Below are positions 1 through 4,402 of a stretch of 6,036 bases of DNA, piece after piece. The position numbers and the translations under genes were made by a program. Every line of letters starts with the position of its first letter. The first letter of the stretch is position 1. A model generated the notes under the pieces. That model did not search any database, was not told where the DNA came from, and saw nothing but the letters and a program-made list of their open reading frames with translations. The DNA is from an uncultured bacterium (GTDB lineage: Bacteria; Planctomycetota; UBA1135; UBA2386): the NCBI GenBank assembly GCA_938003515.1, contig CALKYL010000333.1:1-6036 (forward strand). Direction: 5' to 3'.

Positions 1-1487
1 GGCGGAACATCGGAAACGGCGCCGGCGAGCGCTTCGCGCAGCCGCGCGCGCAGCAGCCACGCGCCCTGCAGCAGGAAGCCGAGCACGTACAGCGCGACGA
101 TCGGCGCGAGCCACGGCGACCGGCTCGACCAGATGCCGGCGAGCCCGACGGCGCCGAGTCCGCCGAGGGCCAGCTCGCCGAGCCCGGACGCGGGCGGGGC
201 GCGGTAGCTGCCGCGGCCGCGGCCGTGCTTGGGCGTGCGCACGAACGGCGACACGAAGCCCAGGAGCGCCTGCCACGCGGCGCGCGCGTTCGACAGCGCG
301 ATGCCGGTGCCGAACGACATCAGCGCCGGCAGCGCCAGGAGCCGCGTCGGGCGTCGGCCCAGGCTCAGCTGCGAGACGACGTAGAGCAGCAGCGGCGGCA
401 CGAGTCCTGCGGCCAGGAGCACGCTGCCGAGCGCGACGGCGAGCATCGGCGCGTGGCGCAGCCACAGCGTCGCGATCGGCGCGAGGACCAGGCTCGCGAC
501 CATGGCCGGATGCACCAGGTAGTGCGTCAGGTGCATCGTCGCCGCGAACGTCTCGACGCGCCCGAGCCCGCTCCGCCAGATCGCCGGCAAGAGCTTGCGC
601 GCCGTCTGCAGCGAGCCCTTCGCCCAGCGGAACTGCTGCGCGCGCCACGCCTCGAGCGTCGGCGGGAGCTCGCCGGGCACCGCGAGGTCGAGGTCGTAGC
701 GTGCGCGGTAGCCGCGCAGCCGCGCGCGGTAGCTCAGGTCGAGGTCCTCGGTGAGCGTGTCGTGCTGCCAGCCGCCGGCGTCGGCGATCGCGGCGCGCCG
801 CCACACGCCGCACGTGCCGTTGAAGTTGAGCGGCAGGCCGCTCCACGCGCGCGCGGCCTGTTCGACGGCGAAGTGGCCGTCGATGCCGATCGCCTGCGCG
901 CGGGTCAGCAGCGACTGGTCGGCGTTGAGGTGCTCCCAGCGCCCCTGCACGAACGCGAGCCGGTCGTCGGCGACGAGCGGCGGCACCGCGCGCGTGAGGA
1001 AGTCGGGACGCGGCACGAAGTCCGCGTCGAAGATCGCGACGAACGCGGCGGGGCCGTCGGCGCGCCGCGCGTCGACCTCGAGGCCGTGCGCGAGCGCGCC
1101 CGCCTTGAACCCGGTGCGGTCCGGGCGGCGGATCTGCGCGGCGTCGATGCCGCGGGCACACAGCCGCGCGATCGCGGCCGCGCCGATCGCGACGCTGTCG
1201 TCGGTGCCGTCGTCGAGCAGCTGGATGCGCAGCCGGTCCGCCGGCCAGTCGAGCGCGCCGACCGCTTCGACGCGCCGGTCGACGACGTCGCGTTCGTCGT
1301 AGACCGGCAGCTGCACGAGCACCGCGGGCCGTTCGGCCGCGGAATCGGCCGGCGGCGGCGTCGGCCGCCGCGCGCGCACGAACCGCAGCAGGAGCCAGAG
1401 GCTGTGCAGCCCCTGGCCGGCGAGGAACGTCGTCGCGACGGCGTAGCCGCCGAGCGCCAGCAGGCCCAGGAGGTCGAGCGCGTGCAC
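1..1487 (-). CDS. CesA-like family 2 glycosyltransferase, membrane-bound (C-terminus cut by window edge)
   Basis: Processive-type GT2 (cellulose-synthase-like) enzyme, expected to transfer a sugar from a nucleotide-sugar at the inner membrane. The frame is open from GTG at 1487 to the left edge, at least 495 residues with no stop. Residues about 3-34 form an N-terminal membrane segment. The cytosolic GT-A domain spans about 55-300 with LPVYDER (60-66), DDG (92-94), RTGFKAGAL (124-132), DAD (154-156), TED (246-248) and QQFRW (284-288), so the nucleotide-binding and catalytic motifs look intact. Four or more hydrophobic segments follow. No PilZ domain is visible in the part present. The start is 16 bp after the arsS stop, with GAGGG (1501-1505) about 13 nt upstream. 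No in-frame ATG exists nearby, so the exact start is uncertain. Tandem placement suggests co-transcription with arsS. The family is clear; the polymer or acceptor is unknown. It is far larger than the small GT2 proteins usually linked to arsenosugar loci. Confidence 0.9.
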
Positions 1488-1503: not shown

Positions 1504-2511
1504 TCAGCCCTCGACCGCCGCCGCCGCGGCCACCGCGCCGGTGCAGCTCGAGCCGGCGCCGGCCGTGCACGCGAGGCAGTGCGACGCCATCGCGACCTCG
1601 CGGCCGGTCAGCTGCTCGGGCGTCACCTGCCACAGCTTCGGCCGCGGCTCGGCGCCGCCCAGCCCGAGGCCCCGCCCGCCGCCGAGCGCGAGGCCGAGTG
1701 CCAGGTTGAAGTCGCAGTCGTGCAGGCTGCCGTCGTGGTCGACGCTGAGCGTCGTGCGGCACATCAGGTTGTCGAGCGTCGCCGGGTTGTAGGCACGCCG
1801 CAGCAGCTCCTCGTAGGCGCCGAGCGTGCCCAGCCGCTCGAGCAGGTGGCGGAACCGCGTGATCGGCACGTTCGCGAGGCACCACAGCTCGTCGAACACG
1901 ATGCCCCAGTCGTCGCGGAGGCGGGTCTTGTAGTCGCCTTCGAGCGCCTTCTGGTCGGGCGGCAGCGAAGGGCCGCCGGGGTTGTAGACCAGGTGCAGCG
2001 GCAGCTCCGGTCGCCTGCCGTAGCCGGCGGCGTTGAGCTTCTGCAGGCCGGCGATCGAGCGGTCGTAGGTGCCGCGGCCGCGCTGCTTGTCGACGTTGGC
2101 GACCAGGTAGCACGGCATGCTCGCGACGACGGTGACCCGATGCGCGGCGAGGAACTCGACGAGGTCCTCCTGGCCGGGCTCGTCGAGCACGGCGAGGTTG
2201 CAGCGGTCCATGACCTTCGCGCCGGCGTCGCGCGCGGCGCGCACCAGCTCGCGGAAGCCGCGGATCAGCTCCGGCGCGCCGCCGGTCAGGTCGACGGTCT
2301 CGGGCCGGTGCCGCCGGATCCACGCGATGACGCGCTCGCGCACGTCGTCTTCCATCTGCTCGCGGCGCCGCGGGTTCGACTCGACGTGGCAGTGGGTGCA
2401 CGCGAGGTTGCAGTAGCGGCCGAGGTTGAGCTGCAGGGTGGTCAGGCGGGCGCGGCGGACCGGCGCGGACCACGGCAGGTCTCTACGAGCGTCGACGGGG
2501 GTTCCGGGCAT
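1504..2511 (-). CDS. arsS: Arsenosugar biosynthesis radical SAM protein ArsS
   Basis: Radical SAM enzyme that, in the known pathway, adds a 5'-deoxyadenosyl group to methylated arsenic made by ArsM, giving the arsenosugar precursor. With the ATG at 2511 the product is 335 residues, normal for the family. The [4Fe-4S] motif CNLACTHC provides C34, C38 and C41. The SAM-binding TGGAPE is at 76-81. The C-terminal Cys-rich (DUF3641-type) domain has C251, DCDFN at 265-269 and HCLACTAGAGSSC (311-323), a family signature. Some family members carry selenocysteine; the corresponding positions here appear to be ordinary Cys codons. The frame is open upstream to 2700, but residues before 2511 look non-coding and overlap the divergent arsM-like ORF, so I prefer the internal ATG. 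No Shine-Dalgarno is visible (the upstream bases are C-rich), so initiation may be weak or leaderless. Its usual partner arsM is represented next door only by a fragment. Confidence 0.93.
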   Translation of the reverse strand: MPGTPVDARRDLPWSAPVRRARLTTLQLNLGRYCNLACTHCHVESNPRRREQMEDDVRERVIAWIRRHRPETVDLTGGAPELIRGFRELVRAARDAGAKVMDRCNLAVLDEPGQEDLVEFLAAHRVTVVASMPCYLVANVDKQRGRGTYDRSIAGLQKLNAAGYGRRPELPLHLVYNPGGPSLPPDQKALEGDYKTRLRDDWGIVFDELWCLANVPITRFRHLLERLGTLGAYEELLRRAYNPATLDNLMCRTTLSVDHDGSLHDCDFNLALGLALGGGRGLGLGGAEPRPKLWQVTPEQLTGREVAMASHCLACTAGAGSSCTGAVAAAAAVEG

Positions 2512-2658
2512 GGGGCTCGGGGTCGGGAGGGCCGCGCATGATACGCCGGCCGCGGCGGGCGATCCCGGCCCGTTGCGATTCGCCGCCGCCTGCAGGAACG
2601 TGTGCGGCGCCGGCTCGTAGATGCCGCGCCGGCTCGCTCCGATCTCCGTCCCACTCCC
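2512..2658. promoter_or_regulatory. Divergent intergenic region between arsS and the arsM-like remnant
   Basis: This 147-bp region lies between the divergent starts of arsS (minus) and the arsM-like fragment (plus), so it should hold the promoters for both directions. On the minus strand TATCAT (plus-strand 2538-2543) is an isolated AT-rich hexamer in very GC-rich DNA. It could be a -10 element about 26 bp before the arsS start, but no convincing -35 box is seen. On the plus strand TTGCGA (2573-2578) is -35-like but has no matching -10. I see no clear dyad operator of ArsR type. Promoter function is inferred from position only. Confidence 0.35.
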
Positions 2659-2763
2659 ATGCCCGAACGTCCGATGCTCGACCACGAGGCGAGCGTGCAC
2701 GCGCGCTACGCGCGCGCCGCGCCGTCGCCCGACGCCGCCCTCTGCTGCCCGGCGTGCCGCTGA
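2659..2763 (+). pseudogene. arsM: Truncated N-terminal remnant of an arsenite methyltransferase (ArsM)
   Basis: A 34-codon ORF runs from ATG 2659 to TGA 2763. A segment HARYARAAP followed by ALCCP resembles, from memory, the first ~30 residues of the ArsM type encoded beside arsS. That type begins with a (V)xxRYxxAA stretch and a Leu-Cys-Cys-Pro arsenic-binding motif, then Tyr-Asp and the methyltransferase domain. Here the motif is followed only by ACR and a stop. None of the other two downstream plus-strand frames resumes an ArsM-like protein: one is the upstream extension of the next gene and the other stops at 2790-2792. So this is a deletion or recombination break rather than a single frameshift. 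No Shine-Dalgarno precedes the ATG. Alternatives are a genuine small CPAC-containing peptide or a leader ORF for the gene 25 bp downstream. The divergent position opposite arsS supports the remnant reading, which rests on recalled family sequence rather than an alignment. Confidence 0.6.
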
Positions 2764-2788
2764 TGCGGGCCCGCCGCGGAGTGCGACC

Positions 2789-3460
2789 GTGAAGCCGCGC
2801 GAGCTGATCGCGACCGCGCGCGTGCCCGGCCACGACGCGGAGCTGCGCTGCTACCACCACGACGGCGCGTTCGAGGTCTGGATCGGGCACGCGGAGCTGA
2901 TGAGCAGCCGCGTGTTCGGCTCGGAGGAGCTGCTCGCCGAGCTCGCGTTCGAACGGCTCGGCCACCGGCGGTCCCCGCGGGTGCTGGTCGGCGGGCTCGG
3001 CATGGGCTTCACGCTCGCGCGCGCGCTCGCGCTGGCCGGGGACCGCGGGCGGGTCGTCGTCGCCGAGCTGGTGCCCGAGGTCGTCGCGTGGAACCGCGAG
3101 CTGTTCGGCCACTGCGCCGGCCATCCGCTGCGCGATCCGCGGGTCGAGGTGCAGGTCGCCGACGTGCGCGACGTCGTCGCCGCTGCCTCGGCCGACTACG
3201 ACGTGATCCTGCTCGACGTCGACAACGGCCCCGAGGGGCTGTCCCGGCCGGGCAACGACAGCCTCTACAACAAGGTCGGCCTGCAGCGCCTCGGCGCCGC
3301 GCTCAACCAGGGCGGCGTGCTCGCGGTCTGGTCGTCGGCCGACGACGCGGCGTTCGACGCGCGCCTGCGCCGCGGGCCGTTCGCGGTCGACCGGCACCGC
3401 GTGCGCGCGCGCCGCACGAAGGGTCCGTACCGCACGATCTGGACCGCGCTGCGCCGGTAG
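2789..3460 (+). CDS. Spermidine synthase-like protein (SAM-dependent methyltransferase fold)
   Basis: The protein has 223 residues from GTG at 2789. That start is supported by GGAG (2778-2781) 7 nt upstream; the frame is open further upstream but overlaps the arsM-like fragment and looks non-coding. The Rossmann nucleotide-binding core follows the SpeE/class I methyltransferase plan: VGGLGMGFT at 67-75 (motif I), acidic E93 after the second strand (AELVPEVV), D125 in VADVRD, and ILLDVDNGPEG at 140-150 in place of the usual aminopropyltransferase acidic loop. It is shorter than typical spermidine synthase (about 280-300 residues), with a reduced N-terminal part. True polyamine synthesis is therefore uncertain, and small-molecule methyl or aminopropyl transfer is equally possible. 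It ends 10 bp before the ECF sigma gene and is probably the first gene of that operon. Confidence 0.8.
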   Translation: MKPRELIATARVPGHDAELRCYHHDGAFEVWIGHAELMSSRVFGSEELLAELAFERLGHRRSPRVLVGGLGMGFTLARALALAGDRGRVVVAELVPEVVAWNRELFGHCAGHPLRDPRVEVQVADVRDVVAAASADYDVILLDVDNGPEGLSRPGNDSLYNKVGLQRLGAALNQGGVLAVWSSADDAAFDARLRRGPFAVDRHRVRARRTKGPYRTIWTALRR

Positions 3461-3470
3461 CGGGCTCGCC

Positions 3471-4088
3471 ATGGCCGAAACCGACGCCGACACCCCGGAC
3501 GACGAGCGCGCCGAGCGAGCGCTGCTGGCGCGGATGCGTGCCGGCGACGACGACGCGTTCGCCGAGCTCGTGCACACGCACGGCGGCCGCATGCTCGCGG
3601 TGGCGAAGCGCGTGACGCGCAGCGACGGCGACGCCGAGGACGTGGTGCAGGAGGCCTTCCTTTCGGCGTTCCGCGCGCTCGACCGCTTCGACGGCCGATC
3701 GCGGCTCTCGACGTGGCTGCACCGCATCGTCGTCAACGCGGCGCTGATGCGGCTGCGCAGCCGCGCCGCGCGGCCCGAACAGCCGATCGAAGCGCTGCTG
3801 CCCGAGTTCGAGGCCGGCGAGCACGTGCGCCCGCCGGCGCGCTGGGCGCCCACGCCGGCCGACGAGGCGGCGCGAAGCGAGCGGCGCGAAGCGCTGTGGC
3901 AGGCGCTCGAGCGGCTGCCCGCGGCGTATCGTGAGGTCGTCGTGCTGCGCGACCTCGAGGGCATGGAATCGAAGGCCGTCGCCGAACAGCTCGGCGTCGC
4001 CGACGCGCTCGTGCGCCAGCGCCTGCACCGCGGGCGCCAGGCGCTGGTCAAGCTGCTGGGTCCCGCGATGGAGGCGCTCTCCGCATGA
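3471..4088 (+). CDS. ECF-type RNA polymerase sigma factor (sigma-70 family)
   Basis: Alternative sigma factor of 205 residues that would direct RNA polymerase to a small stress regulon. Region 2 covers about 27-97, with DAEDVVQEAF (54-63) for core binding and -10 recognition and STWLHRIVVNAALMRLR (80-96). A linker containing LLPEF (109-113) and a conserved-looking Trp (W125) leads to region 4 at about 143-195. There, LPAAYREVVVLRDLEGM and a helix-turn-helix around 167-190 would read the -35 element. Regions 1 and 3 are absent, as expected for ECF factors. The ATG at 3471 lies 10 bp after the preceding stop; the ribosome-binding site is weak. The stop overlaps the start of the anti-sigma gene in an ATGA arrangement, pointing to translational coupling of the pair. 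The target promoter sequence cannot be read from this window. Confidence 0.94.
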   Translation: MAETDADTPDDERAERALLARMRAGDDDAFAELVHTHGGRMLAVAKRVTRSDGDAEDVVQEAFLSAFRALDRFDGRSRLSTWLHRIVVNAALMRLRSRAARPEQPIEALLPEFEAGEHVRPPARWAPTPADEAARSERREALWQALERLPAAYREVVVLRDLEGMESKAVAEQLGVADALVRQRLHRGRQALVKLLGPAMEALSA

Positions 4089-4402
4089 CGGTTCCGCACG
4101 AAGACCCGTGTCCGCACGGACCGGACGCGATCACCTGCCAGCAGTGCGTCGACTTCCTGCTCGAATACGTCGACGACCGACTGCCCACCGAGCAGCGCGC
4201 GCGCTTCGACGCGCACGTCGCGGCCTGCGCGGCCTGCGAGCGCTTCCTCGGCAACTACCGGGACGCGGCCGCGCTGGCGCGTGAGGCCGGCCGGGAGCTG
4301 GACCGGGTCGAACCCGCGGCGCTGCCTCCGGAGCTCGTGGAGGCGATCCTGCGCGCCCGCCGCGGCGGCGACGGTGGCAACCGCGGCGGCAGCGGCGGCT
4401 GA
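4085..4402 (+). CDS. Zinc-finger (ZAS / zf-HC2) anti-sigma factor, soluble
   Basis: Predicted cytoplasmic anti-sigma factor of 105 residues that would bind and silence the ECF sigma encoded immediately upstream. The zinc site is visible as H44-x3-C48-x2-C51 plus an upstream ligand, C18 (or C21, from CQQC). The C18-H44 distance (26) and C18-C51 distance (33) equal those between C11, H37 and C44 of Streptomyces RsrA as I recall its sequence. Additional C9, H5 and H11 make the N-terminus cysteine/histidine rich. There is no transmembrane helix, unlike most envelope-stress anti-sigma factors, so an intracellular signal such as oxidation or a thiophilic metal is likely. After about residue 80, LPPELVEAIL forms a final helix, followed by a Gly/Arg-rich tail. 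The ATG overlaps the sigma stop by 4 bp. A C-terminal tail of low-complexity Gly residues is probably disordered. Confidence 0.85.
   Translation: MTVPHEDPCPHGPDAITCQQCVDFLLEYVDDRLPTEQRARFDAHVAACAACERFLGNYRDAAALAREAGRELDRVEPAALPPELVEAILRARRGGDGGNRGGSGG

Follow-up and report, generated by a model that had tools for sequence, protein, structure and literature searches.

A truncated arsM start beside an intact arsS on a planctomycete contig

Findings

The window considered here, i.e. the whole stretch of 6036 bases that was analysed (GC 74.5%), contains an intact gene for the radical SAM enzyme ArsS and, divergent from it, a 34-codon open reading frame whose product matches the N-terminus of the methyltransferase ArsM, with the similarity ending sharply at an LCCP motif and the body of the enzyme missing. 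We read this frame, here termed arsM', as a dead fragment, namely the start of an arsM gene left by a rearrangement that joined the arsS block to a resident spermidine-synthase-like gene, and give this reading a probability of about two in three (0.66). As a gene fragment, arsM' is most likely an ordinary rearrangement (or assembly) scar rather than a new gene. The genes of the window are ordered as follows (Table 1): a GT2 glycosyltransferase (minus strand), arsS (minus), arsM' (plus), the spermidine-synthase-like gene (plus), an ECF sigma factor, a zf-HC2 gene, a thioredoxin and an alginate-export porin (minus).

Table 1. Features around the truncated arsM start; positions are those of the window
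Feature	Position	Strand	Remarks
GT2 glycosyltransferase	3..1487	-	16 bp past arsS stop; cut by contig end
arsS, radical SAM enzyme of arsenosugar biosynthesis	1504..2511	-	intact, 335 aa; TIGR04167; DUF3641, Radical_SAM
Divergent intergenic region, arsS to arsM'	2512..2658		
arsM' (truncated arsM start)	2659..2763	+	profile match residues 5-31 = 2671-2751, then A-C-R-stop
Junction zone	2752..2788		ArsM similarity stops at 2751; spermidine-synthase-like start codon at 2789
Spermidine-synthase-like gene (PF01564)	2789..3460	+	GTG start, 25 bp past arsM' stop

Identity of the peptide

The arsM' frame extends from an ATG at 2659 to a TGA at 2763 (34 codons plus the stop), is translated as MPERPMLDHEASVHARYARAAPSPDAALCCPACR, and has its start codon separated by 147 bp from that of arsS (ATG at 2511, minus strand). 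A prior examination of the letters alone (hereafter the sequence-only reading) had noted an RYxRAA-type segment and an ALCCP motif in this divergent frame, and both are found, the former as RYARAA. It had further proposed that the peptide resembles ArsM N-termini, which is borne out by profile comparison: against a profile of 58 ArsM starts from the fetched loci (window excluded) the peptide scores 26.5 bits. The best real ORF of the fetched loci outside the ArsM set reaches 9.4 bits (n = 30,588, i.e. 30,656 ORFs of at least 25 aa minus 68 of the ArsM set), the best random ORF 9.1 bits (n = 40,486, out of 400 first-order Markov versions of the window), and all 64 ORFs scoring at least 18 bits are ArsM. 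Chance resemblance in a GC-rich frame, for which one could cite the Ala/Arg-rich composition that arsM' shares with random ORFs in 75% GC DNA and the lack of an ArsM match for this very short 34-residue peptide in the curated Pfam and NCBIfam libraries, is refuted by the profile score against both ORF controls, with the peptide 17 bits over the best of all 71,074 control ORFs, and its probability is negligible.

In a tblastn search the peptide matched the N-terminus of the full-length ArsM of locus L214 in genome G460 (50% over 30 residues; E = 1.4e-6). When aligned with 16 chosen from the 58 ArsM starts, arsM' proved to keep every one of the eight positions that do not vary among those 16 (V, R, Y, A, L, C, C and P); across all 58 the arginine does vary. 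For instance, the ArsM start from locus L166 reads DVESHVRDRYARAAETTEAALCCP versus DHEASVHARYARAAPSPDAALCCP in the window. When the 53-aa in-frame ORF served as a database query, no candidate had three 5-residue words in common with it; the LCCP-type ArsM family was reached in the databases by the profile search and not by this word search.

Judged by its sequence, the peptide is the N-terminus of a long LCCP-type ArsM. Such proteins carry near their start codon a segment of the form V..RY..(G/A)A....LCCP, typically V..RY..AA....ALCCP, with the first cysteine pair, and both segment and pair are also present in arsM'. The SAM-binding domain and the later cysteines, which follow LCCP in these proteins, are in contrast all missing from it. 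The best NCBIfam match of two LCCP-type members was NF040538, a model named for arsinothricin biosynthesis, at 371 and 325 bits, under its cut-off of 500. Some genomes of the phylum have the LCCP segment within long proteins, four of which we examined (L268 from G362, L269 from G280, L270 from G065 and L271 from G354). In all four it is followed by an ArsM-like methyltransferase domain, indicating that the segment belongs with the methyltransferase; upstream of it lie a radical SAM domain in L268 and a SPASM domain in L270 and L271, and in L269, fetched only in part, the region upstream matched nothing in the libraries. Conceivably, such a protein could hold a whole pathway of carbon-arsenic chemistry in one chain.

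The missing body and the junction

The similarity to ArsM ends at base 2751, the end of the LCCP motif. No ArsM body was found in any of the six frames of the window, where the best other segment scored 2.5 bits and both the SAM-binding methyltransferase domain (the LDLGSGGG region) and the later conserved cysteines are absent. For the window, the sequence-only reading is supported in that the arsM body is absent, whereas its proposal that arsM was lost beside its own arsS is only partly supported. The junction (2752-2788) is free of repeats of 22 nt or longer, no sigma-70-type promoter consensus was seen in a scan of 2400-2900, and repeat, promoter and terminator scans yielded nothing decisive. 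Codon usage and GC content are alike on both sides of the junction, and codon-usage distances across it do not exceed those among the right-hand genes (zf-HC2 gene left out).

Arrangements of arsM and arsS elsewhere bear on how the fragment arose. In cyanobacteria, pirellulas and other bacteria that have the two genes as neighbours, an intact arsS lies beside an arsM start, as it does in the window; however, all such pairs seen are codirectional, whereas arsM' is divergent from arsS. From 136 arsS loci we obtained 59 rows holding both genes, and the two are codirectional in all 59. After taking off nine repeats (L180 and L214, which repeat L184, and L216, L217, L218, L220, L222, L227 and L229, which repeat others) about 50 distinct loci are left, none of which has arsM divergent from arsS. 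The lack of an intact divergent arrangement counts against the remnant reading. The sequence-only reading had put the break within a few bases of 2750-2763: a junction is supported, at about 2752-2788, but a simple deletion within a divergent arsS-arsM pair, though possible, is without an intact ancestor among the loci seen, since every linked arsM there is codirectional with arsS.

ArsS, its clade and the supply of methylated arsenic

The earlier statement that arsS is intact agrees with the match of its product to TIGR04167, which scores 393.6 bits where 300 is the cut-off and covers the full length (profile positions 2-303 of 303). The window ArsS falls in a six-member clade (support 99) with its closest relatives (68-71%), which come from genomes G001, G002 and G003 of one class and G455 and G456 of another. 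In none of these five does the DNA examined show arsM next to arsS, an absence that holds only as far as the contigs reach (373 bases ahead of arsS in L001 and 2569 ahead of the match in L212, while L213 ends within arsS). A canonical ArsM (NF008823; cut-off 263 bits) unlinked to arsS is encoded in G001, G002 and G003 (317, 302 and 328 bits, respectively), where it might supply methylated arsenic. None of the three proteins has the LCCP segment at its N-terminus, so the fragment does not derive from an ArsM of this canonical kind. G455 and G456 gave no ArsM at E = 1e-20, a threshold that a canonical ArsM would escape.

The sequence-only reading had further taken arsM and arsS for genes that as a rule occur side by side. 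This found no support here, given the five clade relatives and a planctomycete class in which the two lie within a few kb of each other in 18 of the 50 genomes that have both (counted by eye at E <= 1e-20 among 154 genomes, 58 with arsM and 68 with arsS; genes on separate draft contigs were taken as unlinked, and those of G420, 3.5 kb apart, as linked). Its suggestion that ArsS depends on another ArsM is plausible in view of the unlinked canonical enzymes of the three relatives. SsArsM and SsArsS are reported to act together in Synechocystis (PMC8552651), and arsenosugar production to include a step in which arsenic is adenosylated by a radical SAM enzyme (PMC12159101). An active ArsS in our organism would need methylated arsenic from elsewhere.

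Separately, two in-frame TGA codons lie inside the arsS match of G003 (L083). A single TGA is recorded for several further ArsS matches, although in some of them it may be the terminal stop. Such codons might stand for selenocysteine, as the name of TIGR04167 suggests.

Neighbouring genes and kinship of the flanks

The GT2 gene, on the strand of arsS, codes for a CelA/PgaC-like protein. Neither of the arsenosugar glycosyltransferase models TIGR04282 and TIGR04283 is among its library matches, and it is at most 48-50% identical to its relatives, the best being in G457 (only the class of G455 and G456 was searched). On the other flank, the spermidine-synthase-like protein has planctomycete proteins as its named relatives, and its gene (75%) and the alginate-export gene (58-60%) have their closest counterparts in G477-G480. 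We fetched 20 loci out of 25 matches to the spermidine-synthase-like protein (57-75% identical), and within the DNA examined none of them has arsS, arsM or the peptide nearby; tblastn of the peptide against these loci (E <= 5) gave only weak matches, the best (E = 0.028, L143) without a match to LCCP. Likewise, G476-G480, four of which hold the closest spermidine-synthase-like copies, showed no arsM or arsS match at E = 1e-20. In two of the 20 loci (L132 and L134) the spermidine-synthase-like gene has the alginate-export gene close by, so that the right side looks resident, and the former is probably a resident planctomycete gene. The sigma factor is closest to G458 and had no match in G476-G480 at E = 1e-30 (20 candidates scored per genome).

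Ten of the 20 spermidine-synthase-like relatives (L136-L143, L147 and L149) carry a TAnnnT box 12-13 bases before the start (background 7/540 upstream; 3.6% in shuffled sequence), which looks like a leaderless promoter. No such box precedes the start in the window, suggesting that the gene may there rely on upstream transcription, a weak indication given that the other ten relatives are also without it. As a further observation, the ECF sigma and zf-HC2 pair, which in the window (3471-4402) is one gene away from arsM', is also found in L214 (3967-4866), divergent beside arsM-arsS; this likeness is possibly a coincidence.

Alternative explanations

A mis-assembly, which the sequence-only reading had already named, deserves serious attention even though we think it unlikely. 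Two contigs would here have been falsely connected, one carrying arsS and the opening of an intact arsM, the other starting shortly before the spermidine-synthase-like gene. This would account for the different closest relatives of the left block (ArsS, GT2) and the right block (spermidine-synthase-like, alginate-export), and the window, apparently an entire contig, is probably a metagenome record. However, the right block is itself patchy, as the sigma factor is closest to G458 and not to G477-G480, and with its mixed kinship and the similar codon usage we set aside the unlike origins of the flanks as proof of a chimera. The absence of a repeat of at least 22 nt at the junction, and the similarity of codon usage and GC left and right of it, also speak against a false join, as would the recording of the spermidine-synthase-like protein on two contigs if the second of them spans the junction. 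A natural rearrangement is favoured over mis-assembly.

The frame could also encode a functional short peptide, a translated Cys-Cys leader that would be a putative arsenite binder coupling translation to the spermidine-synthase-like gene 25 bp downstream. The codon-position GC of arsM', 0.73/0.67/0.97 from 2674 on, is coding-like at the third position, where it falls in the range of the real genes of the window (0.90-0.98); at the second it is above theirs (0.41-0.53). Such third positions fit a young remnant, but also a short expressed peptide, and the missing TAnnnT box might likewise make the downstream gene dependent on upstream transcription, though half of the relatives share that lack. 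A profile search of 5.8 billion proteins, confined for the arsM' query to lengths of 29-93 residues, gave 191 matches, of which the 120 listed all run at least 12 residues past LCCP (LCCA in P0206), in the manner of partial genes at contig ends. In genomes sampled from the phylum, the segment occurs at E <= 0.001 in 120 of 392, and at every listed place but one (125 aa, running into a contig end) the frame stays open for 256 aa or more; with at most 17 candidates scored per genome, a weak match could escape this search. A complete short ORF with its own stop, whose conservation in relatives the sequence-only reading had named as the mark of a true small protein, was looked for and found neither in the 120 listed proteins of the 191 nor in the 392 genomes. 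Moreover, what the peptide resembles is the stretch ahead of the ArsM catalytic domain, and nothing points to selection acting on it separately; we regard a functional peptide as highly improbable. Slightly less probable still is the specific proposal that the arsM start has been kept as a leader peptide that binds arsenic and, through its translation, governs the spermidine-synthase-like gene; if true, the metal-binding N-terminus of an enzyme would have been reused as a sensor.

Proposed origin and implications

The reading of arsM' as a dead fragment is favoured by the profile score, the absence of an ArsM body in the window and of a conserved short ORF in the searches, the 20 loci around related spermidine-synthase-like genes without arsS, arsM or peptide, the five close ArsS relatives without an arsM neighbour, three of which have a canonical ArsM elsewhere, the methyltransferase domain that follows the segment in the four long proteins, and the codon-usage distances across the junction, which stay within those between right-hand genes. 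Under this reading, a rearrangement would have left the first 31 or so codons of an LCCP-type arsM at its edge, and the junction would be a real event in the genome. The remaining peptide, with the first cysteine pair only and no SAM-binding domain, should not methylate and probably has no catalytic activity. ArsS, if active, would draw its methylated arsenic from an ArsM encoded at another locus or from the surroundings, and transcription of the spermidine-synthase-like gene may now start at the former arsM promoter.

Should the junction be real, the window would add one more case of bacterial arsenic genes that have been moved and broken, and an intact arsS would be no evidence for an adjacent arsM. 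The ArsS clade, with five relatives lacking an adjacent arsM in the DNA examined and three having a canonical ArsM, makes the question of substrate supply testable.
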